Assembly (NCBI RefSeq): GCF_026343955.1
Contig: NZ_JAPKNI010000008.1
Location: 1-64,000 of the forward strand
Reading direction: 5' to 3'
Source of the DNA: Kaistia defluvii
GTDB taxonomy: Bacteria > Pseudomonadota > Alphaproteobacteria > Rhizobiales > Kaistiaceae
Length of the DNA stretch: 64,000 nt
Each line of letters starts with the position of its first letter. The first letter of the stretch is position 1. The translations under genes and the position numbers were made by a program. Shown in pieces: positions 32,205 to 54,835 of this stretch. The notes under the pieces are model-generated. The model searched no databases, was not told the origin of the DNA, and was given only the letters and a program-made list of their open reading frames with translations.

Positions 32205-32588
32205 TCAATCCATCATGCTGACATGCGCCGCTGCGACCTTCCAGCCGTCCTCGGTGCGGATCCAGGTCTGCATCTGGCGGCCGACCTGGCCCGGAAAGTC
32301 GGGGCGATGGAACAGCGTCGAGGCAATCGCGACGTTCTGGCCATACGTCGTGATGACGGTCTGAGACAGCGTGCGCTCGAACGGCTTCTGCACCGAGCGG
32401 AACTGCCGGACCTCGTCTATGCCGTGCTGCACTTCCGCGACGCCGTAGCGGATGGTCTGGCGCGAATGCAGGAACATCGCGTCGAGCGTCGCGCCGTCAT
32501 TTTCCAGCAGCGCCTTCTCATAGGCTTCGAAGATCGCCGTCACCTCGGCGACCAGATCCGGGTCGTCGACAACAAGGGGCTCAGCCAT
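32205..32588 (-). CDS. AtzH/HpxZ-like NTF2-fold protein (DUF3225)
   Basis: A 127-residue protein of the SnoaL/NTF2-like fold, most like the DUF3225 proteins AtzH and HpxZ that sit beside allophanate- or oxalurate-type amidase genes. Key stretches are [37 protein letters not shown] and [20 protein letters not shown]. The ATG at 32588 lies 7 nt inside the preceding hydrolase gene. It is the last gene of the operon. AtzH-type proteins have been linked to decarboxylation or handling of unstable carboxylated urea intermediates; I state this as recall, not as shown here. In this operon it could act on carboxybiuret or a similar compound. Confidence 0.8.
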
Positions 32589-33264
32589 CGGCCATGGCTC
32601 CTGCGAAGGCCGTCTCCAGCGCGGCGAGCGGCGCGGACCAGCCGACAATGCCACCCTGCGCCACGATCATCTCGATCGCGGCCGCCTTGAACTCCGGGAA
32701 GTAGCTCTCGGTCGCATCCTCGATCAGCAGGCATTCATAGCCGCGGTCATTGGCCTCACGCATCGAGGTCTGGACGCAGACTTCCGTCGTCACGCCGGCG
32801 AATACCAGTTGGCTTATGCCGCGTTCCAGCAGGGTCTGGTGCAGGCCGGTCGCCCAGAACATGCCCTTGCCGGGCTTGTCGATGACGATCTCGCCGGCGA
32901 TGGGCGCCAGTTCGGCCAGGATCTGGTTGCCGGGCTCGCCGGCGATCAGGATCCGGCCCATCGCGCCTTCATCGCCGATCCGCAGGCCCGGCTTGCCGCG
33001 AAGGAGCTTGGCCGGCGGGCAATCGGAGAGGTCGGGCTTGTGCGCCTCGCGGGTGTGCACGACGAGCATGCCTTGCTCGCGGAAGAAACCGATCAGCGCC
33101 GCGACGGTCGGCACGATCGCCGTCAGCCGCGATACGTCATTGCCGAGCACGGCGCCGAAACCGCCGGGTTCGATGAAGTCGCGCTGCATGTCGATGACGA
33201 CGAGCGCCGTCCTGGCCGGGTCGAGCGCGAAGTCATAGGGGCGGGCGGATACCGAAAGCGCCAT
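32581..33264 (-). CDS. Isochorismatase-fold cysteine hydrolase, candidate triuret hydrolase
   Basis: A 227-residue cysteine hydrolase related to BiuH. The triad is readable as Asp25 (VVIDMQRDF), Lys130 ([11 protein letters not shown]) and Cys163 ([11 protein letters not shown]); Lys and Cys are 33 residues apart, as in BiuH. It also keeps [11 protein letters not shown] and GEPGNQIL, but differs from the biuH product at 34811 in the substrate loops ([14 protein letters not shown] instead of [14 protein letters not shown]). Triuret hydrolase (TrtA) is known to be a close paralogue of BiuH, and a pair of such genes with atzF fits triuret -> biuret -> allophanate. An alternative is a ureidoacrylate- or carbamate-type amidase. 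It follows the importer ATPase by 2 nt. Confidence 0.82.
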
Positions 33265-33266
33265 GC

Positions 33267-34814
33267 TCAGTGCCCCGCCATGTGCTGGCCGATCGTGTTG
33301 CGGTCCGTGTCCTCGATCGCCGCGACATAGCCGATTGCCCCGCCCGACATCACCGCGACCCGGTCGGCGAGTTCGAGGATCTCGTCGAGATCCTCGCTGA
33401 CCAACAGCACCGCCGCGCCGCGGTTGCGCTGCTCCATGATCTGGCTGCGGATTTCCGAGACGGAGGCGAAGTCGAGGCCGAAGCAGGGGTTGGCGACGAT
33501 CAGCACGTCGACATCGCCGGAAAGCTCGCGCGCCAGCACCGCCCGCTGGACGTTGCCGCCGGAGAGCGTCTCGATCGGCGCGTCGGCCGAGGTCGTCTTG
33601 ACCCGGTAGCGGTCGATCAGTTCCTCGGCGCGCTTGCGCATCGGGCCGGGCGACAGCCACCAGCCGAGGCTCGCCATCGGCGCCTTGTCGAAGGCGCGGA
33701 AGGCCATGTTCTCGGCAACGCTCATGCGCGGCACGGTGGCGTTCTTCAGCGGCTCCTCCGGCAGGCCGAACACCTTGAAGCGGTCGAAGTCGCCGCGCTT
33801 CGGTTCGAACGGCTTACCGTGGATGAAGATGGCGCCATCCTTCAGCGGTCGCTGCCCGGCCAGCGCCTCGACCAGCGCGCTCTGCCCGTTGCCGGAGACG
33901 CCGGCGATGCCGACGATTTCGCCGGCCTTCACCTTGAGATTGATCGCATTGAGCACGGGCCGGCCTTCGCCATCCTCGGCGACGAGGCCGGCGAGTTCGA
34001 GCACGGCCGGGCGATCGTTGTGCTTCCGCCGTTCGGCGCGCTCGCGGATCTCGGTGTCGCCGATCATCATCCGGCTCATCTCGGCGACGGTCGCCGTCTG
34101 GGCATCGCCCGCGCCGGTCAGCCGACCCCGGCGCAGCACGGTGAAACTGTCGCAAAAAGCCTTCACTTCGCGGAATTTGTGGCTGATCATCAGCACGGTG
34201 ACCTCGCCGCGCCGCGCCATGTCGCCGAGCAGGCCGAGCACTTCGTCGGCCTCGCCGGGGGTCAGCACCGAGGTCGGTTCGTCGAGGATGACGAAGCGCT
34301 GCTCCAGATAGAGCAGCTTGAGGATTTCGAGCTTCTGCTTCTCGCCGGCCGAGAGCGAGGAGACCTGCTCGTTCAGCGGCACGCGGAAGGGCATCCGTTC
34401 CATGAAGGCTTCCAGCCGCTGCTTCTCCGCCTTCCAGTCGATGATGGCCGGTGCGTCGGCGCGCGAGATGACGAGGTTCTCCGCCGCCGTCAGGCAGGGA
34501 ACCAGCGTGAACTGCTGGTAGACCATGCCGATGCCCAGCGCCCGGGCGTCGCGCGGGCTGCGCACCTCGACCTCCTTGCCGTCGAGCAGCACGGAGCCAT
34601 GCTCGGGCGTGTAGAAGCCCATGATGCATTTGACGAGGGTCGACTTGCCCGCGCCGTTCTCGCCGAGCAGGGCGTGGAACGAACCCGGCTTGACGTCGAT
34701 CGACACGTCGTCGAGCGCGGTGAAAGCGCCGAAGGTCTTGGTCATGCCGATGGTCTGCAGCGACGGGGCGCGCAGCGGCAGGCTGTCGGGGGCCGGGCGG
34801 GCGGCGATGTTCAT
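33267..34814 (-). CDS. BMP-type ABC importer ATPase (two domains)
   Basis: A 515-residue tandem ATPase of the class serving BmpA/nucleoside-type importers. Domain 1 has Walker [15 protein letters not shown], signature [12 protein letters not shown] and Walker [12 protein letters not shown]. Domain 2 has [28 protein letters not shown] and a Walker B ending [12 protein letters not shown], where Asn-Pro replaces Asp-Glu-Pro. Start ATG 34814 overlaps the biuH stop by 4 nt. It works with the permeases at 35558 and 36475 and the binding protein at 37708. In context it would power uptake of biuret, triuret or a similar urea oligomer. Confidence 0.92.
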
Positions 34815-35533
34815 GGCAGCGCCTCCAGGAATTCGGCCGATGTCGCGACCGCGCCGAAGACGCCGCCCTGCATCTTGATCATGTCGATGGCGGCGAGGTG
34901 GTTTTCCACCTTGGTGGCCGCGCAGCAATCCGACAGCAGCAGGCACTCATAGCCGCGATCATTGGCGTCGCGCATGGTGGTGTGGACGCAGACATCGGTG
35001 GTGACGCCGGTCAGGATGATGTTGCGGATGCGCTTGTTCTGCAGCACCAGTTCGAGATCGGTGGCGATGAACGATCCCTTGCCCGGTTTGTCGATGATCG
35101 CCTCGCCGGGCTCGGGCTGCAGTTCCGGGATGATTTCCCAGCCCGGCTCGCCGCGCACCAGGATGCGGCCGCAGGGCCCCTGGTCGCCGATGCCGGCGCC
35201 GATGCGCTGCGAGCGCCAGCGCTTGTTGGCGGGCAGGTCCGAAAGGTCGGGCTTGTGGCCCTCGCGGGTATGGAGGATCGGGTAGCCCTTGGCGCGCATG
35301 GCCGCCAGCACCGTCTGGATCGGGCCGATCGGCGCGCGGGTCAGCGAGATATCGTAGCCCATCGAGTCGACATAGCCGCCGGGCGCGCAGAAATCGGTCT
35401 GCATGTCGATGACGACGAGGCAGGTGTTGTGCGGCCCGAGATCGCCGTCGAACGGCCAGGGATAGGGGTCGGCGGCGACCGTGACGGCACCGGGCTTGAG
35501 GGCGGCGTCTATGCGTTCATCGACGAGTGTCAT
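34811..35533 (-). CDS. biuH: Biuret hydrolase (biuret amidohydrolase)
   Basis: A 240-residue cysteine hydrolase that converts biuret to allophanate and ammonia. Asp43 ([11 protein letters not shown]), Lys149 ([11 protein letters not shown]) and Cys182 ([11 protein letters not shown]) have exactly the spacing of the Asp36-Lys142-Cys175 triad of Rhizobium leguminosarum BiuH. Stretches such as [22 protein letters not shown] and [15 protein letters not shown] closely match that enzyme as I recall it. It is cytoplasmic. It lies between the two permease genes and the importer ATPase (4-nt overlap), in an operon that also encodes allophanate hydrolase, which consumes its product. RutB-like amidases are the main alternative, but the residue pattern favours BiuH. 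Confidence 0.9.
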
Positions 35534-35557
35534 GGCAACCTCACGGGAAATTCGGGC

Positions 35558-36478
35558 TCACTTGACGATCGAGAGCTCGCCGGGCGCCTCGCGCGCAGCG
35601 CTCTTGGAACGGGCCGAAGCGATCATGATGAAGAGGGTCAGGATGTAGGGGGCCGCGTTGAAGAAGTAGTAGCCCTGGCTGACGCCGATCGACTGCAGCG
35701 ACGGTCCGAGCGCCCCGGCTGCGCCAAACAGCAGGGCCGCCAGCACGCATCGGATCGGGTCCCAGCGGGCGAAGATCACCAGCGCCACAGCCATCAGGCC
35801 CTGGCCGGACGAGAGGCCCTCGTTCCAACTGCCGGGATAGAACAGTGACAGGAAGGCGCCGCCGACGCCGGCGAGGAAGCCGCCGGCCGCCGTTGCCAGC
35901 AGGCGGACCAGATCGACCGAGACGCCCATGGCGCGGGCCGAGGCGGCGCTGTCGCCGGTCATGCGCAGGATCAGGCCCCAGCGCGTATTGGCGAAGGCCC
36001 AGCGCAGGAACAGCGCCAGCGCGATGCCGAGGAAGAACAGCGGGTTGACCTGCAGCGCCTGCGCGACCAGCGGATCGGACGACCAGCCGCCGAGCGGGAT
36101 CGCCTCCAGCCGCGGCGCGGTCGGCTGGATGTAGGGCTTGCCGAAGAAGAAGGCGAGGCCGATGCCGAAGCTCATGAAGGCGATGCCGACGGCGATGTCG
36201 TTCACCTTGGGCAGCTTGCAGATGTAGCCATGCATGGCGCCGAGCACGAGGCCGGAACAGCCCGCCATCAGCACGCCGAGCCAGGGACTGCCGGTGGTGT
36301 AGGAGCCGGCATAGGCGACCATGGCGCCGAGCACGAGATTGCCCTCGAGGCCGAGATTGATGCGGCCGGATTTCTCGGTCAGGCATTCGCCGAGCGCCAC
36401 GAACATGAACGGGGTGGAGACGCGGATGGCGCCGCCGATCAGGGCGATGAAGACGATGAAGAGGTCGCCCTGGCTCAT
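35558..36478 (-). CDS. BMP-type ABC importer permease 2
   Basis: A 306-residue inner-membrane permease of the BPD_transp_2 family, the second of the pair. Eight to ten hydrophobic segments are visible. LGECLTEKSGRINLGLEGNL near residues 30-50 is the signature of BMP-type importer permeases, with GDSAASARAMGVSVDLVR as the cytoplasmic coupling loop. The ATG at 36478 overlaps the first permease by 4 nt. It ends 24 nt before the biuH start. Together with its partner it forms a heterodimeric channel for the substrate carried by the BmpA-type protein. Confidence 0.92.
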   Translation of the reverse strand: MSQGDLFIVFIALIGGAIRVSTPFMFVALGECLTEKSGRINLGLEGNLVLGAMVAYAGSYTTGSPWLGVLMAGCSGLVLGAMHGYICKLPKVNDIAVGIAFMSFGIGLAFFFGKPYIQPTAPRLEAIPLGGWSSDPLVAQALQVNPLFFLGIALALFLRWAFANTRWGLILRMTGDSAASARAMGVSVDLVRLLATAAGGFLAGVGGAFLSLFYPGSWNEGLSSGQGLMAVALVIFARWDPIRCVLAALLFGAAGALGPSLQSIGVSQGYYFFNAAPYILTLFIMIASARSKSAAREAPGELSIVK

Positions 36479-37584
36479 GACCGGTCTCCCGCGCGCTTCG
36501 GCTGCAGGAAGGGAATGCGGCCATAGAAAGTCTCGCTGACCAGCAGCACCACGAAGATCATGCCCTGCAGCACCAGCACGGTCGCGTCCGGCATCGCCAT
36601 GCGCCGCTGCACCAGCCCGCCGGCCGCGGCGAGCGCGCCGAACAGGATGGCCACCGGCACGACGGCCAGCGGGTTCTGCCGGGCGAGGAACGCGACGAGG
36701 ATGCCGGTGAAGCCATAGCCCGCGACCAGCGAGGCGTTGGCCTGGCCGTGGATGGCGGCGACCTCGAAGAAGCCGGCGAGGCCCGCGCAGGCGCCGGCAA
36801 TGGCGCAGCAGGCGACGACGAGGAAGCCGACGGGCAGGCCCTGCGCCTGCGCGGCGCGGACATTGCCGCCGGTCATGCGCGCGGCGAAGCCGAAGGTGGT
36901 GCGCGACATCAGCAGCCAGAGGATCACCGCCAGGACGACGCCCGCGGCCAGCCCCCAATGCACCGACGTGCCCGGCATCGGGCCGATGCGATAGGCGTCG
37001 CCTATCGGCATGGTCGACGGCTTGTTGGCGGAAGCGGGATCGCGCAGCGCGCCCTCGACGAAGAAGTTCATGATCGCGATGGCGATGTAGGAGAGCAGCA
37101 GCGACGAGATCGTCTCGTTGACGCCGCGATAGTGACGAAGCCAGCCGGCAAGCCCGATCCAGAAGGCGCCCACCAGCATGGCGGCGATCGCCATGATCGG
37201 CAGGCCGATCCAGGGCGTCCAGCCGCCGCGCACCAGCGGAATGGCGATGGCTGCGGCCGAGAAGCCGCCGAGCACCAAGGCGCCCTCCGCCCCGATCAGC
37301 GTCAGGCCGATGCGGGCGGGAATGGCGAAGGCGAGGCCGGTCAGGATCAGCGGCGCGGCGCGCTGCAGCGTGTTCTGGATCGAGAAGGCCGAGCCGAACC
37401 CGCCGGTCCAGATCAGGTTGAAGAAGGTGACCGGCGACTTGCCGAGAAAGAGCAGGAAGACCGAGAACAGCGCCGCCGAGGCCACCAGCGCGCCGAGCGG
37501 GATGATCACCGCCTCGATCATGCGGATGGCGCGCGGGCTGAGGCCGCCGCGTTCGATCGAGGAGGAGGCGAGGACGGCGGTCAT
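36475..37584 (-). CDS. BMP-type ABC importer permease 1
   Basis: A 369-residue permease of the BPD_transp_2 family with about nine hydrophobic segments; it is longer than its partner, with an N-terminal extension of about 25 residues before the first helix. LAFAIPARIGLTLIGAEGAL is the family motif near residue 85, and GGNVRAAQAQGLPVGFLV is the coupling loop. It is translationally coupled to the second permease. A 123-nt gap with a hairpin separates it from the binding-protein gene upstream. Confidence 0.92.
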   Translation of the reverse strand: MTAVLASSSIERGGLSPRAIRMIEAVIIPLGALVASAALFSVFLLFLGKSPVTFFNLIWTGGFGSAFSIQNTLQRAAPLILTGLAFAIPARIGLTLIGAEGALVLGGFSAAAIAIPLVRGGWTPWIGLPIMAIAAMLVGAFWIGLAGWLRHYRGVNETISSLLLSYIAIAIMNFFVEGALRDPASANKPSTMPIGDAYRIGPMPGTSVHWGLAAGVVLAVILWLLMSRTTFGFAARMTGGNVRAAQAQGLPVGFLVVACCAIAGACAGLAGFFEVAAIHGQANASLVAGYGFTGILVAFLARQNPLAVVPVAILFGALAAAGGLVQRRMAMPDATVLVLQGMIFVVLLVSETFYGRIPFLQPKRAGDRS

Positions 37585-37674
37585 GGCCTGCCTCCCTTGT
37601 CCGGCAGTCTCGCGGCTCTGGCGTGCATCGTCCGGTTCCTTTTGCCTACGCGGTCGCGCGTTTGCGCTGCGGTT

Positions 37675-37697
37675 GGCGGCGGCATGGCGCCGCCGCC
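37675..37697 (-). other. Hairpin after binding-protein gene
   Basis: GGCGGCGGC-atggc-GCCGCCGCC forms a perfect 9-bp stem 10 nt after the stop codon of the BmpA-type gene. No U-run follows. It is the same arrangement as at 10095, 29718, 48414 and 57798. Confidence 0.6.
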
Positions 37698-37707
37698 GGG
37701 AGGAAGG

Positions 37708-38811
37708 TCAGGTGGTGGAGCCCTGGACGCCTTCCAGCAGGTAGCCCATGCCGTCGAGGACCGGGTCGTAATTGTCCATCGTGCCTTCGATGACGATCTT
37801 GCCGGTGTTGTCCTTGAGCGGGCCGACATAGATCGGCTTCTTGGCCTTGAGCCCTGCGATCGCGGCATCGGCCGCCTGGATCGCCTCGGGCGTCGCGCCG
37901 GCGCCATAGGGCGTGTTGCGCAGCATGTCGTTGTGGTAGCCGCCGGCGATGAAGTTCGGCAGTTCGCTCCCCGTGGCGAGCGCATCGGCGTAGATCTTGT
38001 AGATCGTCTCCCACTTGTACTCGGCGCCGGTGATGAAGCCCTTTGGCGCCAGCGGCGCCTGGCTGGCATTGTGGCCGCAGCTCTTCACGCCGCGCGCCTC
38101 GGCCGTCTCGATGACCACCTTCGGGCCATCGACATGGCAGGTGATGACATCGCAGCCGGCGTCGATCAGCGCGTTGGAAGCCTCGGCCTCGCGCACCGGC
38201 AGCGACCACTCGCCGGTGAAGATCACCTGCACGGTGGCGTTCGGGTTGACGCTACGGGCGCCGAGCAGCACCGAGTTGACGTTGGAAAGCACCGAGGGGA
38301 TCGGCTTGGCGGCGACGAAGCCGATCTTCCCTGCCTTCGACGACAGGCCGGCGGCGACGCCGTTCACGAAATGCGCCTGGTTCAGGTAGCCGAAATAGCT
38401 GCCGGCGTTCTTCGGATCGCCTTCCTTCCAGAGCGGCGCGGCGTGGCGGAACTGGACGTTCGGATACTTCTTGGCCGCCTCGACGACGAACGGGGTGTAG
38501 TAGCCGAACGAGGTGGCGAGGATCAGGTTGGCCTGGTCGAGGTTGATCATCGATTCCATCGACTGGGTGACGGCATCCGTCTCCGCCACCTTCTCCTCTT
38601 CGATGACGGTCACGCCCGGCACCTGCTTCAGGATGTCCATGGCGGTGGCATGGGCCTGGTTCCAGCCGAAATCATCGCGTGGGCCGACATAGACGGCGCC
38701 AATCACGATCGGGTTGGCGGCGCGGGCCGCGCCGAAGGGCAGGGCCGCCAGAGCGGCACCGGCGGCGCCGGCCTTGAGAAGCGAACGTCTCGTCAGGGAC
38801 GATGTGAACAT
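37708..38811 (-). CDS. BmpA-family substrate-binding protein with Tat signal
   Basis: A 367-residue periplasmic binding protein of the BMP/PnrA family, usual ligands of which are nucleosides and purine-like compounds. The signal TRRSLLKAGAAGAALAALPF has a twin-arginine motif, so it probably leaves the cell folded through Tat. The mature part starts ANPIVIGAVYVGPRDDFGWN and has SFGYYTPFVVEAAKKYPNV and GITFNTDMLRNTP-like regions (seen as GGYHNDMLRNTPYG). It is the second gene of the atzF-biuH operon, so biuret, triuret or a related ureide is the likely ligand; this would be an unusual ligand for the family. Confidence 0.9.
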   Translation of the reverse strand: MFTSSLTRRSLLKAGAAGAALAALPFGAARAANPIVIGAVYVGPRDDFGWNQAHATAMDILKQVPGVTVIEEEKVAETDAVTQSMESMINLDQANLILATSFGYYTPFVVEAAKKYPNVQFRHAAPLWKEGDPKNAGSYFGYLNQAHFVNGVAAGLSSKAGKIGFVAAKPIPSVLSNVNSVLLGARSVNPNATVQVIFTGEWSLPVREAEASNALIDAGCDVITCHVDGPKVVIETAEARGVKSCGHNASQAPLAPKGFITGAEYKWETIYKIYADALATGSELPNFIAGGYHNDMLRNTPYGAGATPEAIQAADAAIAGLKAKKPIYVGPLKDNTGKIVIEGTMDNYDPVLDGMGYLLEGVQGSTT

Positions 38812-39052
38812 GCGAGGCTCCGTGGCTAAGGTTGCGTGTCCGGCGCGCCCCAGCGGCAGCCGGTCTGTCTTCCGGGGTAGAGGCAAGGCACATGCCATTC
38901 CCGTGTCGGGCGAAGGCTTGCTGGTAACGTCCTGTTAACCCTGAGATCTCGCTGCTGCCGGCATGAGAAGGCCTCCTGCCTTCCCAAGCGGCATGCCTCG
39001 AAAACGGGCATCCGGCTCGGGGCGTGGAGAAGGAGAAAGCGCGCCAGATGCG

Positions 39053-40867
39053 TCATGCGACGACCTCCGGCGATGCCTTGGCCGCGCCGGCGGCGAGCCA
39101 GGCGCGCCAGCCCCCGAAGCGGGTGATGTCGGCGGCGCCCGCAAGTCCCTGCGTCTCGCACAGGAAGCCCTTCACCGTGCTGCCATCGGCGAGCTTCACC
39201 GTGCCAAGGCCGAGCGGGGCGGGGATACCGGCCAGGAAGTCGCCGACCGTGCTCCTCGGCAGCGCCCAGACCTCGAGCGCGATCGATTGACCGCTTGCCG
39301 CGTGTCGGACCATGCCGGGGCGTGCCGGCGGTCCGCCGGCGAGCGCATAGAGGCCGTATTCCGGCGCGGTCAGCGTGGCGCGCAGGAAGCGGCCGCCCAG
39401 CGAGGTCAGCTGGTGGTTGAGCGGCAGACCGGACATATGCGCGCCACAGACGGCAATCGCGATCTCGTGGGTGGCGGGCAGGACAGCCTCGGGCAGGGTG
39501 ATGGCCGGGCGAGGCCAGCCGGTCGCGCCCATCGGTCCCGCTTCGAGGCCGGCCGCAATGCCGGCGCAGAGCGCATCGCGGCCCTGGGTGGCGAGCAGCG
39601 TCACGCTTCCCGGCCGGCCATCGGCACGGAGTCCCGTCGGCACGGCGATGCCGCAGAGATCGAGCAGATTGGCGAAATTGGTATAGGTTCCGAGGCGCGA
39701 ATTCGGGCCGAGCGGATCGGCGGCGACCTCGTCGAGCGTGACGAAGGTGGGAATGGACGGCACGCAGAGCGCATCGATGCCGGCGAGCAGCTTGCGGCAG
39801 GCGGCCTCGCGCTCCTTGAGCTGGTACAGGCCGCGAAACGCATCGACGGCGGTCAGCTTGAGACCGGGTTCGAGGATGGCGCGCGTGGTCGGATGCAGCG
39901 TTTCCGGCTTTTCGGTCAACCGGTCGCCCACGGCGGCAACCCGCTCGGCCAGCCACGCGCCCTCATAAAGCATGCGGGCCACGGCGAAGAAGGGTTCGAG
40001 GTCGATCTCGACCAGGCTCGCGCCCTGGTCAGCCAGTTTCGCGACGGTGGCGCGGAAGTCCTCGGCCTGAAGGGCGTCGCCGAAGGTGACGAGGCTCGCC
40101 GCGTCCGGCACGCCGATGCGGAGCGAGGCTGGCGGCGCGGTCAGGGCGGGAACCGCGACCGGGCGCGAATAGGCGTCCGCCTCGTCCGGCGCGGCGGCGG
40201 CCTGGAACACCGTCCACGCGTCGGCGACCGTGGTGGCGAAGATCGAGACGGTGTCCAGCGTGCGGCAGGCCGGCACGACGCCCGTGGCGGAAAGCGCGCC
40301 CAGCGTCGGCTTCAGCCCGACGATCGCATTCAGCGCCGCCGGCACGCGGCCGGAGCCGGCCGTGTCGGTGCCGAGCGCGAAGCCGACAACGCCATGCGCG
40401 ACAGCGACGGCGGAGCCGGACGACGATCCGCCGGGCACGATCGCCGGGTTGATGGCGTTCTTCGGCACGGGATAGGGCGTGCGCACGCCGACCAGGCCGG
40501 TGGCGAACTGGTCGAGATTGGTCTTGCCGAGGCAGATCGCGCCGGCGGCGCGCAACCGCGCGACGACGAAGGCATCCGCCTCCGGCTGATAGGCGAAGTC
40601 GGGACAGGCGGCGGTGGTCGGCATGCCGGCGACGTCGATATTGTCCTTCACCGCGAAGGGGATGCCCCAGAGCGGGCGTCCGTCCGGCTCGCCCAGCGAC
40701 CGGGCCTCGGCCAGCGCCGATCCGCGCGCGGCGTGGATGAAAATACCCGCATCGCCGACGGCGCCGAGCCGGCGGAAGGCTTCGGCGACAACCGCTTCGG
40801 GCCGCAAGCCGGCCCGGTAGGCGGCTTGCAGGGCTTCGACGGTGAAGGGCAGTTTCGAAAGGGTCAT
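39053..40867 (-). CDS. atzF: Allophanate hydrolase
   Basis: A 604-residue amidase-signature enzyme that converts allophanate to ammonia and CO2, last step of biuret, urea and cyanuric acid breakdown. The Ser-Ser-Lys triad is Lys74 (PFAVKDNIDVAG), Ser148 (PGGSSSGSAVAVA) and Ser172 (GTDTAGSGR). Their spacing is the same as Lys91-Ser165-Ser189 of AtzF, and the length (AtzF is about 605) matches too. The amidase domain covers roughly residues 1-430 and the AtzF-type C-terminal domain the rest (QLTSLGGRFLRATLTAPEYG, ending near FLCETQGLAGAADITRFGGW). It is the first gene of the operon and divergent from the LysR gene. It ends 240 nt before the BmpA-type gene, a gap where I find no gene. Confidence 0.93.
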   Translation of the reverse strand: MTLSKLPFTVEALQAAYRAGLRPEAVVAEAFRRLGAVGDAGIFIHAARGSALAEARSLGEPDGRPLWGIPFAVKDNIDVAGMPTTAACPDFAYQPEADAFVVARLRAAGAICLGKTNLDQFATGLVGVRTPYPVPKNAINPAIVPGGSSSGSAVAVAHGVVGFALGTDTAGSGRVPAALNAIVGLKPTLGALSATGVVPACRTLDTVSIFATTVADAWTVFQAAAAPDEADAYSRPVAVPALTAPPASLRIGVPDAASLVTFGDALQAEDFRATVAKLADQGASLVEIDLEPFFAVARMLYEGAWLAERVAAVGDRLTEKPETLHPTTRAILEPGLKLTAVDAFRGLYQLKEREAACRKLLAGIDALCVPSIPTFVTLDEVAADPLGPNSRLGTYTNFANLLDLCGIAVPTGLRADGRPGSVTLLATQGRDALCAGIAAGLEAGPMGATGWPRPAITLPEAVLPATHEIAIAVCGAHMSGLPLNHQLTSLGGRFLRATLTAPEYGLYALAGGPPARPGMVRHAASGQSIALEVWALPRSTVGDFLAGIPAPLGLGTVKLADGSTVKGFLCETQGLAGAADITRFGGWRAWLAAGAAKASPEVVA

Positions 40868-40946
40868 GGATCGCTCGGTGGCAGAGTTCGGCCCCGGCAA
40901 GGTGCAGCCTTTTTGTGTTCTCCAAAAATGCTATGAATTCAGCGAT

Positions 40947-40967
40947 GCGGTGCAAAAAATGCACCGC
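40947..40967. promoter_or_regulatory. LysR-type operator candidate
   Basis: GCGGTGCA-AAAAA-TGCACCGC is a perfect inverted repeat with 8-bp arms in the 119-nt gap between the divergent atzF operon and LysR gene. TGCA-N5-TGCA fits the LysR box form (T-N11-A). I infer it as the binding site of the regulator at 40987. Confidence 0.7.
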
Positions 40968-40986
40968 CCTCGACGGGAGCGGCGCG

Positions 40987-41913
40987 ATGCGGCACTTGCA
41001 GACCTTTCTGATGATCGAGGCGGTGGCGCGCGCCGGGTCGATGCGCAAGGCGGCCGAGGACATGAACATCACCGCCTCCGCCCTGGTCCGCCGCATCAAC
41101 CGCTTCGAGGACGAGTTCGGGGCCGAGCTGTTCGAGCGCTTGCCCAGCGGGGTGCGGCTCAATTCGGCCGGAGAACTTCTGCTGCATCACTATCGCGCGA
41201 CGCGGTCGGATCTCCTGCGCGTGCAGGGGCAGGTGGCGGATCTATCGGGCGAGCGGCGCGGCCATGTCTCGATCGCCTGCTCGCAGGCTCTGCTGCCCTA
41301 TTTCCTGCCGCAGGAGATCGCCCGCTATCGCGCCGATCATCCCGGCGTCACCTTTTCCGTGCATGTGCGCGACCGCGCCCAGGCCGAGCAGGATCTGGCC
41401 AGCTATTCGAGCGACCTCGCCCTGGTGTTCGAGCCGGTCTATCTCGTCGATTTCGAGGTGCTGCACGTCATCCCGCAACCCGTTCACGTCGTCATGCGCG
41501 CCGATCATCCGCTGGCCGCGAGGCTCGAGATCCGCCTGCGGGATTGCCTGGATGTCCCGCATATCGCGCCGAGCGCGAAGTTCGGTGTGCGCCATCTGCT
41601 CGACTTCGCCGCGAGGCGGGGCTCGCGGCGCGTCTCGCCGGTGGTCGAGACGGAGAGCTTCGACATGATCCGCCACTATGTCCGGCACGAGAATGTCATC
41701 GGCTTTCAGATCGGCATCGGCCTGCGCGATCCCGGCGACGGTTCGCTGGTATTCCGGCCGATCGCCGAACGCGACCTGCCGGCCGGCAACCTGATCCTCG
41801 GCCAGATGCGCGGCCGGGCCCTGCCGGTCGCGTCCGCCCGCTTCGCCGTGCAGCTTGCCGCGAGCCTGAAGGACTATGCCGCCGGCGACGTCGTCGAGCG
41901 GTCGGGCGCCTAG
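40987..41913 (+). CDS. LysR-family regulator
   Basis: A 308-residue regulator with the N-terminal helix-turn-helix MRHLQTFLMIEAVARAGSMR and AAEDMNITASALVRRINRFEDE, and a C-terminal periplasmic-binding-like ligand domain from about residue 90. ATG 40987 is preferred because homologues start at MRHLQTF and a GGGAGCGG element precedes it; in-frame ATGs further upstream (40915) would place the inverted repeat inside the gene. It is divergent from the atzF-biuH operon and is probably its activator, sensing biuret, triuret or a nitrogen signal. Its stop overlaps the decayed gene on the other strand. Confidence 0.92.
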   Translation: MRHLQTFLMIEAVARAGSMRKAAEDMNITASALVRRINRFEDEFGAELFERLPSGVRLNSAGELLLHHYRATRSDLLRVQGQVADLSGERRGHVSIACSQALLPYFLPQEIARYRADHPGVTFSVHVRDRAQAEQDLASYSSDLALVFEPVYLVDFEVLHVIPQPVHVVMRADHPLAARLEIRLRDCLDVPHIAPSAKFGVRHLLDFAARRGSRRVSPVVETESFDMIRHYVRHENVIGFQIGIGLRDPGDGSLVFRPIAERDLPAGNLILGQMRGRALPVASARFAVQLAASLKDYAAGDVVERSGA

Positions 41914-51002: not shown

Positions 51003-51077
51003 CCATTCGCTTCCGGCTCCCGCGACGGCCCGACGGTCGTCGCAGGCATCGGCACTCATTTGCCCGAGAGGTCGTTC

Positions 51078-53147
51078 ATGACTGAGAAGATTACGCGTGT
51101 CTCCACCGACGTTGGCGGCACCTTCACCGATCTCGTCTATTTCGAGATGGACATGGCCACCGGCGTGCAGACCGTGCGGACGGAGAAGTCCGACACCACG
51201 CCGCCGGATTTCGAGAAGGGCGTGCTGAACGTCTTCGACAAGGCCGGCGTCGACGTCGAGGCGGTCGACTTCTTCGCCCACGGCACCACCGTGGTGATCA
51301 ACGCGCTGACCGAGCGCAAGGGCGCCAAGGTCGGCCTGATCGTCACCCAGGGATTTCGCGACTCGCTGGAAATCGGCCGCGGCAACCGCCCCGATTTCTT
51401 CAACCTGAAATATGTGAAGCCGGAACCCTTCGTGGAGCGCTACCTGCGCCGCGAAGTGACGGGCCGCATGGACTATCGCGGCACCGAAGTCACGGCGCTC
51501 GATCTTTCGGAGCTCGACGCGATCGTCGCGGATTTCCGGGCCGATGGCGTCGAGGCGGTGGCGATCTGCCTGCTGCACTCCTACGCCAACCCGGCGCACG
51601 AGAAGGCGATCCTCGAGGGCGTGCGCGCCCGCTGGCCGGGCGTCACCGCCGTCGCTTCGCACCAGATCACCCGCGAATGGCGTGAATATGAGCGCACCAA
51701 CACCACGGTGTTCTCGGCCTATGTGCAGCCCAAGGCGGAGCGCTATCTCGAGAAGCTCGAGAGCGGCCTGAAGGGCAGGGGCTATCGCGGCAATCTGTTC
51801 ATCATGCAGTCGAACTGCGGCGTCGACTCGGTCGAGGCGGTCAAGGCCGTGCCGATCACCATGGTCGAGAGCGGCCCGGCCTCGGGCTTCTGGGGCGCGG
51901 CGGAACTCGGCCGCATCATCGGCGAGCCCAACGTGCTGGCGCTCGATATCGGCGGCACGACGGCGAAATGCTCGCTGATCGAAGGCGGCCAGGTGACGAT
52001 CAAGACGGACTACTGGATCGAACGCAACCGTCGCTCGGCCGGCTATCCGATCATGGTGCCGGTGGTCGATCTGGTCGAGATCGGCAATGGCGGCGGCTCG
52101 ATCGCCTGGGTCGACGACTTCGCCAAGCTGCATGTCGGCCCGCAATCGGCCGGCTCCACCCCAGGACCGGCCGCCTATGGCCGCGGCGGCGCCCGGGCGA
52201 CGACGACCGACGCCAACCTGGCGCTCGGCCGCATCAATCCGGACTATTTCTGCGGCGGCACGGTCCAGGCCGATATCGGCGCGCTGAACGGCGCGCTGGC
52301 GGAACTCGCCGACAAGCTCGGTACGGCGCCGGTCGACGTGGCGCGCGGCATCGTCCGCATCGCCAATTCGAACATGGTCAACGCGCTCAAGCTCGTCTCG
52401 GTCAATCGCGGCTACGACCCGCGCGACTTCACCCTCGTGGTGTTTGGCGGCGGCGGGCCGATGCATGGCGTGGCGCTCGGCCAGGAACTGGGCGTCAAGA
52501 AGGTGGTGGTGCCGCGCGGCGCGCCGGTCTTCTCCGCCTGGGGCATGATGATGTCGGACCTGCGGCGCGACTATTTCGTCACCCGCCTGCTCGACGCCAC
52601 CGACCATGCCGGCCTCGACGACCTGCTCGCCGGCATGATGGAGCTCGCGCGCGAGGAGTTCGCCCGCGAGGGTGTCGAGCGCGAGAAGATCTCGATGCGG
52701 CCGCTGGTGCGATGCCGCTACCAGAACCAGGAATTCGCCGTCGAGGTGCCGATCGAGGCCGGCCGGATCGGCCCGGCCGAGATCCAGGCGATGGTAACGT
52801 CGTTCCACGAGGTCTATGAGCGCGAATACACCTATCGCCTGCAGGCGGGGGTCGAGATCATCGGCCTGCACCTGATCGCGGCGAGCGAGGTCGGCAAGCT
52901 CGAACTGGTGCCGATGCCGGTCACCGGCGCGAGGCTGGAGGACTCCGTCAAGGGCCGCCGCATGGTCGACTACGCCACCGAGGGCGTGCACGAGGCGACG
53001 ATTTATGACGCCACGAAGTTCGAGCCTGGCATGCGCTTCAACGGCCCGGCGATCATCGAGGATCCCGGCACCACCATCGTCGTCCATCCCGGCAACCGCG
53101 TCGAGATCGACACCTTCGGCAACACCCACATCGAGATCCGGGGCTGA
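51078..53147 (+). CDS. Hydantoinase/oxoprolinase-family subunit A (HyuA)
   Basis: A 689-residue ATP-dependent ring-opening or carboxylating enzyme subunit of the N-methylhydantoinase A/5-oxoprolinase/acetone-carboxylase beta family. ASKHA phosphate motifs are readable: VSTDVGGTFTDLVYF at the N-terminus and ALDIGGTTAKCSLIEGG in the middle. FAHGTTVVINALTERKGAKV and GQVT-type C-terminal motifs also fit. ATG 51078 with GAGAGG upstream is preferred over a TTG at 51060. It is followed by subunit B after 2 nt. The likely substrate is a cyclic amide, for example a hydantoin or pyroglutamyl-like ring; none can be named. Confidence 0.92.
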   Translation: MTEKITRVSTDVGGTFTDLVYFEMDMATGVQTVRTEKSDTTPPDFEKGVLNVFDKAGVDVEAVDFFAHGTTVVINALTERKGAKVGLIVTQGFRDSLEIGRGNRPDFFNLKYVKPEPFVERYLRREVTGRMDYRGTEVTALDLSELDAIVADFRADGVEAVAICLLHSYANPAHEKAILEGVRARWPGVTAVASHQITREWREYERTNTTVFSAYVQPKAERYLEKLESGLKGRGYRGNLFIMQSNCGVDSVEAVKAVPITMVESGPASGFWGAAELGRIIGEPNVLALDIGGTTAKCSLIEGGQVTIKTDYWIERNRRSAGYPIMVPVVDLVEIGNGGGSIAWVDDFAKLHVGPQSAGSTPGPAAYGRGGARATTTDANLALGRINPDYFCGGTVQADIGALNGALAELADKLGTAPVDVARGIVRIANSNMVNALKLVSVNRGYDPRDFTLVVFGGGGPMHGVALGQELGVKKVVVPRGAPVFSAWGMMMSDLRRDYFVTRLLDATDHAGLDDLLAGMMELAREEFAREGVEREKISMRPLVRCRYQNQEFAVEVPIEAGRIGPAEIQAMVTSFHEVYEREYTYRLQAGVEIIGLHLIAASEVGKLELVPMPVTGARLEDSVKGRRMVDYATEGVHEATIYDATKFEPGMRFNGPAIIEDPGTTIVVHPGNRVEIDTFGNTHIEIRG

Positions 53148-53149
53148 TC

Positions 53150-54835
53150 ATGAACGACATGACGACCATGAAGGCCACGACGACCAGGGACTTCGATCCC
53201 GTCACCTTCGACATCATCCAGAGCGCGCTGGAGGCCATCGCCGACGAGATGTTCGTCGCGCAGGTGAAGACCTCGATGAGCGCGATCATCTACGAGGTGC
53301 TCGACCTCTCCACCTCGGTGCTCGACCGCCACGGCGAGATCGCGGCGTCGGGCGCCGGCATCCCCGCCTTCATCGGCGTGCTCGACAAGGCGATCAAGGG
53401 CATCTTCAAGAAGTACGCGCTGGACGAGATCAAGCCGGGCGACGTGTTCGCCTCGAACGATCCCTATTTCGGCGGCGTCACCCACCTGAATGACATGGTG
53501 CTGGCGGCTCCCGTCTTCCACGAGGGACGCCTGATCGCCTGGGTCTCCAACATCGCCCACTGGAACGATGTCGGCGGCAACGTGCCGGGCTCGATGTCCA
53601 CCGACGCGACCGAGATCTTCCAGGAAGGCGTCCGCATTCCCGCGGTGAAGCTGTTCGAGGAAGGCCGCGAGAACAAGGCCGTGTTCGACATCCTCTACGT
53701 CAACACGCGCCTGCCGGACTATCTGCGCGGCGACCTCTGGGCCGGCATCGCCGGCCTCCGGATCGGCGAGCGGCGCGTGCTGGAACTGGTCGGGAAATAC
53801 GGCGCCGACACCTTCGAGGCGGCGGTCGACGACTACATGCAGCTCGGCGAGCGCCGGGCCCGCGCCGCGCTCCGCAACATTCCCGAGGGCACCTATACCT
53901 TCGAGGAAGAGCAGGACACCGGCGCCATCCACCGCGTTACGCTGACGATCAATGCCGATGAGTTCGTCGTCGATCTCACCGACAATCCGAAGCAGAAGGG
54001 CTCGTCCAATTCGAGCCGCGAGGGAACGGAGATCGCCGTCCAGCTCGCCTTTAAGGCGTTCACCGATCCGGACGCGCCCGGCAATGGCGGCTTCTTCCGG
54101 CCGTTGAAAGTGGTGACCAGGCCCGGAACGATCTTCCACGTCGAGGCGCCCGGCGCTCTCGGCTACTATTCGGAAGTCGAGATCCGCGTGTTCGACATGA
54201 TCCTGCGCGCGCTCGCCTCGCATTTCCCTGGCGTCGTTCCGGCCGGCAACTTCGCCTCGATCTGCGGCACCACCGTTGGCGGCCCGCATCCCGAGCATGG
54301 TCGCCACTACACCATCGTCGAGCCGCAGATCGGCGGCTGGGGCGCGTGGGAAGGCTCGGATGGTCCGAGCGGCCAGTTCTCCGGCTTCCACGGCGAGACC
54401 TTCAACTGCCCGGCCGAGGTCGCCGAAGCCCGCTACGGCCTCGCGGTCGACCAGGTCGCGCTCAATGCCGAGCCCGGTGGCGAAGGCCAGTGGCGCGGCG
54501 GCAAGGGCATCGACGTCCACTACCGCGTGCGCGCCGACGACAACTTCCTGTCGCTCGGCTACACCCGTTCGCGCATCCCGCCATGGGGCGTCGCGGGCGG
54601 TCTGGACGGCTCGACCAACTACATCGAGCTGCGCCGCACCGACGGCAGCAAGGAGCGTCTCTCCTTCGCCACCAATGTCGTCGTCAACACGGGTGACATC
54701 ATCCGCGTCGTCACCGGCAATGGCGGCGGCTTCGGCGATCCCGCCCGGCGCAGCCCCGAGGCGATCGAGCGCGACATCCTGAACGGCTACCTGACCCCGG
54801 CGCGCGCCGCCGAGATCTATGGCCACGGCGGCTGA
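53150..54835 (+). CDS. Hydantoinase/oxoprolinase-family subunit B (HyuB)
   Basis: A 561-residue HyuB-type subunit, partner of the gene before it. Landmarks are FDPVTFDIIQSALEAIADEM, SNDPYFGGVTHLNDMVLAAP, WVSNIAHWNDVGGNVPGSMS and GNGGGFGDPARRSPEAIERD at the C-terminus. The size agrees with bacterial N-methylhydantoinase B (about 520-590). The two subunits would form a heteromeric cytoplasmic enzyme that uses ATP. It is followed by a 365-nt gap that holds the second GntR-type operator and no gene. Confidence 0.92.
   Translation: MNDMTTMKATTTRDFDPVTFDIIQSALEAIADEMFVAQVKTSMSAIIYEVLDLSTSVLDRHGEIAASGAGIPAFIGVLDKAIKGIFKKYALDEIKPGDVFASNDPYFGGVTHLNDMVLAAPVFHEGRLIAWVSNIAHWNDVGGNVPGSMSTDATEIFQEGVRIPAVKLFEEGRENKAVFDILYVNTRLPDYLRGDLWAGIAGLRIGERRVLELVGKYGADTFEAAVDDYMQLGERRARAALRNIPEGTYTFEEEQDTGAIHRVTLTINADEFVVDLTDNPKQKGSSNSSREGTEIAVQLAFKAFTDPDAPGNGGFFRPLKVVTRPGTIFHVEAPGALGYYSEVEIRVFDMILRALASHFPGVVPAGNFASICGTTVGGPHPEHGRHYTIVEPQIGGWGAWEGSDGPSGQFSGFHGETFNCPAEVAEARYGLAVDQVALNAEPGGEGQWRGGKGIDVHYRVRADDNFLSLGYTRSRIPPWGVAGGLDGSTNYIELRRTDGSKERLSFATNVVVNTGDIIRVVTGNGGGFGDPARRSPEAIERDILNGYLTPARAAEIYGHGG

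Follow-up and report, generated by a model that had tools for sequence, protein, structure and literature searches.

We analyzed a 64,000-nucleotide stretch of Kaistia defluvii DNA (the window; positions 1 to 64,000 of the forward strand of contig NZ_JAPKNI010000008.1, assembly GCF_026343955.1), in which positions 32205 to 41913 hold genes that very probably let this bacterium import triuret and biuret and degrade them for nitrogen. A sequence-only reading of the same DNA had listed an allophanate hydrolase, a biuret hydrolase, a second paralogous cysteine hydrolase, an AtzH/HpxZ-like small protein, a BmpA-type importer and a divergent LysR regulator, and all of these were found where it had put them. 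The features of the locus are as follows.

39053..40867, minus strand: atzF, allophanate hydrolase (604 amino acids)
37708..38811, minus strand: BMP-family periplasmic binding protein (SBP, 367 amino acids; Pfam Bmp; twin-arginine translocation (Tat) signal borderline, exactly at the cut-off)
36475..37584, minus strand: ATP-binding cassette (ABC) permease 1 (369 amino acids)
35558..36478, minus strand: ABC permease 2 (306 amino acids)
34811..35533, minus strand: biuH, biuret hydrolase (240 amino acids)
33267..34814, minus strand: ABC ATPase with two ATP-binding domains (515 amino acids)
32581..33264, minus strand: trtA, triuret hydrolase (227 amino acids)
32205..32588, minus strand: DUF3225 (AtzH-like) protein without Arg66 (127 amino acids), proposed carboxybiuret decarboxylase (TrtB role)
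40987..41913, plus strand: divergent LysR-type regulator (308 amino acids)
40947..40967, no strand: proposed LysR operator, palindrome GCGGTGCA-N5-TGCACCGC

On the minus strand, from 40867 down to 32205, the genes thus run AtzF, SBP, permease 1, permease 2, BiuH, ATPase, TrtA and DUF3225 protein, with overlaps of 4 bases between the two permease genes, 4 between those for BiuH and the ATPase and 8 between those for TrtA and the DUF3225 protein, and with larger intergenic gaps of 241 bases before the SBP gene and 123 before that for permease 1. For the DUF3225 gene, 32588 is the most probable start, the mechanically called open reading frame beginning at 32654. The same operon type, at 83 to 99% identity, is found in 3 of 14 genomes of the genus, namely those of the window (G000), G299 and G302, and the G302 copy (L154) is cut, beginning inside AtzF at a contig end.

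Hydrolases of the triuret and biuret pathway

AtzF contains both the amidase and the allophanate hydrolase C-terminal domain (NCBIfam/Pfam) and clears two NCBIfam allophanate hydrolase cut-offs (802 versus 487 bits and 757 versus 511 bits). The triad read earlier from the sequence, Lys74-Ser148-Ser172, is in place, and its Lys and first Ser presumably correspond to those of AtzF from strain ADP. BiuH clears the NCBIfam BiuH model NF050097 (411.6 versus 370 bits), is 75% identical to crystallized BiuH and harbors the triad Asp43-Lys149-Cys182, the steps of which (106 and 33) give the spacing of Rhizobium leguminosarum BiuH (Asp36-Lys142-Cys175; PMC5806882), as had been claimed. RutB, which the sequence-only reading had set against BiuH as a possible identity of the 34811 product, is ruled out by a score of 115.9 versus 377.95 bits on NCBIfam TIGR03614, and in a tree built of TrtA and BiuH rows only, this product clusters with BiuH.

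The second cysteine hydrolase is TrtA, as judged by identity, tree and specificity residues. It is 69% identical to crystallized TrtA (6xix) over 216 columns, the crosswise identities of BiuH and TrtA to the crystallized counterparts being 48% and 45%. Its triad Asp25-Lys130-Cys163 has steps of 105 and 33 (24-129-162 in reference TrtA), and it too falls below the RutB cut-off of TIGR03614 (96.7 versus 377.95 bits). All ten residues D24, F35, N41, E72, K129, K132, E160, C162, Q202 and I205, which are catalytic, substrate binding or second shell according to PMC7948467, are present. We compared these positions across a census of related loci (L001-L080), which leans to close relatives because the best 80 of 590 confirmed BiuH loci were kept. 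The ten-residue set is common to all 68 trtA copies with an identity of 57% or more (four TrtA rows, L028, L030, L033 and L060, ran beyond the stop codon and were marked X), and the BiuH set (Y, Y, D and V at 35, 41, 160 and 205) is found in 79 of 80 BiuH copies, the remaining one having I at 205; the window BiuH carries residues of the BiuH kind at all ten positions. A single branch with a support of 100 splits the two families.

From the identities of AtzF, BiuH and TrtA and their residue sets, the operon should therefore take triuret through carboxybiuret, biuret and allophanate to ammonia and CO2, a chemistry established for homologues of the three enzymes (PMC7948467, PMC5806882) and one that we infer for the window proteins. 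The stepwise route from triuret to NH3 and CO2 put forward earlier is thus borne out at the level of family cut-offs and residues, and its triuret step is firmer than the earlier "probably", given that the second hydrolase is identified as TrtA. Alternatively, biuret might be all that the operon serves, with carboxybiuret or some other ureide as the target of the TrtA-like enzyme. In favor of this, biuret is the common denominator, and some loci with BiuH and the transporter have no TrtA beside the ATPase (none found in L016 and L056; on the other strand in L040 and L059). The complete set of ten TrtA residues, the 69% identity and the extreme specificity of Herbaspirillum TrtA for triuret (PMC7948467) speak against this possibility, which we hold to be very improbable.

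Both the kind of pathway and the gene set are already in print, and what is added here is the argument on the importer ligand and the DUF3225 subtypes. Work from 2020 established the triuret-biuret-allophanate pathway (PMC7948467), and a 2025 paper reported atzF, biuH, trtA and trtB collocated with bmpA-nupABC in metagenome-assembled genomes of nitrifiers (PMC12625717), with the same gene set as in the window, importer included, so that neither can count as new. The trtA-biuH-atzF operons of Herbaspirillum sp. BH-1 and R. leguminosarum 3841 (PMC7948467) share the enzymes and their catalytic and specificity residues with the window. The plasmid locus of strain 3841 (L081) also has the window's order of SBP, permease, permease, BiuH, ATPase and TrtA; unlike the window, it harbors a formamidase and AtzD inside the operon, shows no AtzF in the 15 kb read and, as annotated, has GntR where the window has LysR and a cupin where the window has DUF3225.

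The BMP importer and its linkage to BiuH

Genomes were sampled evenly from larger groups, giving 297 of the order and 398 of the phylum. Among the 297, BiuH of at least 69% identity is found in 64 (among the matches listed), the SBP (E ≤1e-70) in 62 and both in 59; in each of these 59 (of the 64 with BiuH), one SBP shares its strand with BiuH and is no more than 7 kb away, and 3 of the 233 genomes without BiuH of this identity hold the SBP. In 66 of the 71 census loci of at least 14 kb, SBP, permease 1, permease 2, BiuH and ATPase follow in this order on one strand (intervening genes allowed); BiuH comes after the permease genes and before that for the ATPase in 66 of 71, and TrtA comes next after the ATPase among these genes in 62 of 71. 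Together with the operons in two more genomes of the genus, this order places the association of the genes in one operon, as read earlier, beyond chance. The 76 SBP copies of the order sample divide into 59 that are linked to BiuH and 17 that are not. One unlinked copy, in G282, sits where a contig ends, and that contig also carries AtzF and AtzD; two, in G004 and G090, stand by themselves in genomes that lack BiuH at 69% identity or more; one in G120 is a second copy, its neighborhood lying outside the comparison; and 13 orphans (L125-L137) come from genomes that also have a linked copy.

The SBP passes Pfam PF02608 (116.8 versus 24.1 bits), and its AlphaFold model (mean predicted local distance difference test score 89) has as predicted best fold matches 3s99 (template-modeling score 0.82/0.91) and AtzT, with a riboflavin binder also among the matches. 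The pocket residues W50, S101, F102, S173, W202, H226 and D228 correspond to AtzT positions 45, 97, 98, 165, 194, 218 and 220, respectively, and the aromatic sandwich (W50/W202), Ser97, His218 and Asp220 (AtzT numbering, used hereafter) are as in 3s99. AtzT of Pseudomonas sp. ADP (PMC6834077; PDB 6pi5, 6pi6, 6pii), which lies beside an s-triazine/allophanate pathway and is ~30% identical to the window SBP, shares the BMP fold and the pocket frame; it has Glu165, Asn218 and Asn220, in contrast to Ser, His and Asp here. It binds 2-hydroxyatrazine and guanine, the latter best of the compounds tested, with Glu165 hydrogen bonding to guanine, and 3s99 was modeled with adenine (PMC6834077). With these ligands and the riboflavin binder, the earlier description of a family known for nucleosides proves too narrow.

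Glu165 is absent from all 99 distinct operon SBPs (rows differing in residues 41-340 of the extracted sequence), 97 of which have BiuH in the same locus or no farther than 7 kb away; in the two exceptions (L084, and G282, represented by L103/L140), only AtzF with a formamidase or AtzD is seen before the record or contig ends. The window SBP has Ser173 at this position. Class A operon SBPs (49) have 25 Ser, 22 Thr, 1 Val and 1 Ile at residue 165, and class B has Gln in 50 of 50; the SBP of the strain 3841 locus, ~50% identical to that of the window, is of class B with Gln165. W194, S97, H218 and D220 are retained in 99 of 99. Glu165 itself is retained in AtzT, in 3s99 and in a paralogue of the window's own genome (L089), which has its own permease and ATPase matches, lies in a cluster that also encodes a molybdopterin oxidase, a urate oxidase and an OHCU decarboxylase and is by context a purine importer.

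These pocket residues and the co-occurrence with BiuH support the dedicated urea-oligomer importer that the sequence-only reading had advanced, with biuret and/or triuret as the probable cargo, and the best reading is of a BMP transporter that may have shifted from purines to urea oligomers. An alternative leaves the enzymes as stated and has the importer carry a purine- or pyrimidine-derived ring (nucleobase, urate or triazine), with the hydrolases handling its breakdown products. The closest solved relatives do bind adenine, guanine and 2-hydroxyatrazine, the sandwich of W50 and W202 is retained, and AtzD occurs in 21 of the 80 related loci, while 32 show a formamidase match, as a rule located after permease 2 and before BiuH. 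Against such a cargo, the guanine-contacting Glu165 is missing throughout the operon SBPs, a separate transporter with E165 lies in a purine cluster of the same genome, the window operon has no ring-opening enzyme and the genome shows no match to AtzD; we consider a ring cargo unlikely. Cyanuric acid in particular is an unlikely feed and was rejected, because the window genome yields no AtzD match, whereas the same query finds AtzD in G278, G130 and G282; G299 gives no AtzD match either. No formamidase was seen in the window operon.

Several observations weigh against assigning urea oligomers to this transporter. The contrast at residue 165 rests on three Glu carriers (AtzT, 3s99 and L089), and the Fisher tests (SBP versus BiuH and, below, Arg66 versus AtzE) ignore the kinship of the sequences. 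Four of the 71 long BiuH loci are without such a transporter. The 13 orphan SBPs show no permease 1 or 2 match in stretches of 15 to 16 kb, and the stretches of three of them (L133, L134 and L137) do contain AtzF or TrtA matches. A four-gene transporter, 70 to 80% identical and with the same pocket as the window SBP, is carried by two plasmids, of Roseinatronobacter (L083) and Roseicitreum (L085), on which no BiuH was found in a search of the plasmid replicons only; the pair of plasmid SBPs is a weak sister group (support 80) of the window SBP. A literature search found no measured ligand for a BiuH-linked BMP transporter, and titles and abstract openings yielded no biuret or triuret importer apart from the nucleoside transporter of PMC12625717. 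That label is given without a ligand argument in the available text, in contrast to the urea oligomers favored here.

The orphan SBPs form a clade within the same class as the operon SBPs and have Leu or Ile at 165; a GntR-like match occurs in 11 of their 13 stretches. The L083 and L085 transporters adjoin a 5-FCL-like gene, and 5-FCL-like matches occur in 15 of the 80 biuret loci. Plasmids of Klebsiella, Enterobacter and Citrobacter (L084, rows H47-H65) encode an SBP ~54% identical to that of the window, which in L084 stands alongside AtzF, two permeases and a formamidase match.

The DUF3225 protein and residue 66

The DUF3225 protein matches the Pfam AtzH-like family, clears the NCBIfam HpxZ cut-off (155 versus 135 bits) and retains eight of nine AtzH pocket residues, including Tyr22 and Arg46; the ninth, Arg66, is replaced by Gln. 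Residue 66 follows the presence of AtzE. In a first count, 15 of the 17 copies whose locus includes AtzE (L134 counted among these) have Arg66, as does 1 of the 11 whose locus does not, the latter group including the window and plasmid loci L082 and L086; this count does not include AtzH or PDB 2owp and 2rcd. Beyond the class, Arg is present in 2 of 2 copies with AtzE and another residue in 3 of 3 without. Within the genus, Arg occurs in 7 of 7 copies with AtzE within 1.5 kb (L006, L009 and L011 already being in the first count) and Gln in all 3 window-type copies, window included; this count omits L155 as well as L147 and L150, which have Arg but show no AtzE or TrtA within 1.5 kb. L176 was scored as AtzE-less despite a 31% amidase match 15 kb away.

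The window operon shares AtzF and a DUF3225 protein with the AtzDGEHF cyanuric acid pathway but has no AtzD or AtzE, with BiuH and TrtA instead, and its DUF3225 protein lacks Arg66. AtzE was not found in the operon, and no match at E ≤1e-60 was found in the window-type genomes G000, G299 and G302. An AtzE elsewhere in the window genome was rejected, the best match being 39% identical versus 58 to 59% in G278 and G130, relatives within the genus that have another operon and also give AtzD matches. The protein could nonetheless be a true AtzH/HpxZ on a dicarboxyurea or oxalurate route, as the HpxZ cut-off and the eight retained pocket residues would have it. This seems rather unlikely to us, given an operon without AtzE and the poor AtzE-like match of the genome, the Gln in place of Arg66 (10 of 11 AtzE-less copies lack this Arg) and a second DUF3225 copy in the same genome, L155, that does have Arg66. 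We favor instead a carboxybiuret decarboxylase, an assignment suggested by position and AtzE absence only, and the name that the NCBIfam HpxZ model gives to 32205-32588 (oxalurate catabolism protein) is probably wrong. Carboxybiuret, with its single carboxylate, would be the substrate of the non-Arg type, and dicarboxyurea, with two, that of the Arg type.

Three points count against this assignment. Copies L014, L019 and L012 are exceptions to the rule at residue 66. The AtzH variants named as weakened in the available text of PMC6219798 are those of Tyr22 and Arg46 and Arg63Lys, with no Arg66 variants among them, so that Arg66 is seemingly dispensable for AtzH activity in vitro. Finally, carboxybiuret decarboxylates by itself with a half-life of ~20 min (PMC7948467).

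A cupin is found in 37 and DUF3225 in 23 of the 71 long loci, and both together in none; the two may be alternative carboxybiuret decarboxylases. Outside the class, seven stretches were fetched, two of them without the operon, and the five with the full transporter operon all have DUF3225 and no cupin. The name TrtB was not attached to either protein, as the available text of PMC12625717 and PMC9118981 names no family for it.

Regulation, proposed mechanism and meaning

The inverted repeat that the sequence-only reading had given to the LysR regulator is present as the palindrome GCGGTGCA-N5-TGCACCGC upstream of the LysR start, with 8 of 8 pairs between its arms. The core, TGCA-N5-TGCA, is repeated without change 32 to 39 bases before the LysR start, in L153, L042, L044, L076 and L087 (LysR 56 to 97% identical) and is absent in L133 (61%), L037 (44%) and at both LysR matches of L052 (39 to 41%). 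A scan for sigma-70 promoters found none, and terminator-like sites numbered 5 against a shuffle mean of 4.0. Farther downstream on the LysR side, hydantoinase A- and B-type genes lie at 51060-54835 of the window.

The locus as a whole is best explained, and we believe with good confidence, as an inducible nitrogen-scavenging operon for triuret and biuret. In the proposed mechanism, the LysR protein would read a compound of the pathway and bind the TGCA-N5-TGCA palindrome between lysR and atzF, both the binding place and the sensed compound being putative. The BMP protein would capture triuret and/or biuret in the periplasm for import by the two permeases and the double ATPase. TrtA would then strip one ammonia from triuret to give 1-carboxybiuret, the decarboxylation of which to biuret the DUF3225 protein would accelerate; BiuH would deaminate biuret to allophanate, and AtzF would split allophanate into ammonia and CO2.

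We lean, by a modest degree, toward a broader proposal in two parts: that BiuH-linked BMP transporters are dedicated importers of linear urea oligomers derived from purine binders, with Glu165 lost and Ser/Thr or Gln pockets in its place, and that the DUF3225 proteins of trtA loci split by residue 66 into an Arg type that occurs with AtzE and serves dicarboxyurea and a non-Arg type that occurs without AtzE and serves carboxybiuret. Biuret and triuret are impurities of urea fertilizer, and the transporter of their pathway is either undiscussed or named a nucleoside transporter in the available published text. If the proposal is true, the linkage and pocket data point to a new ligand for a widespread family of binding proteins and to a better name for many of the "nucleoside" importers that lie beside BiuH, and a rule based on one residue, Arg66, may correct HpxZ annotations.

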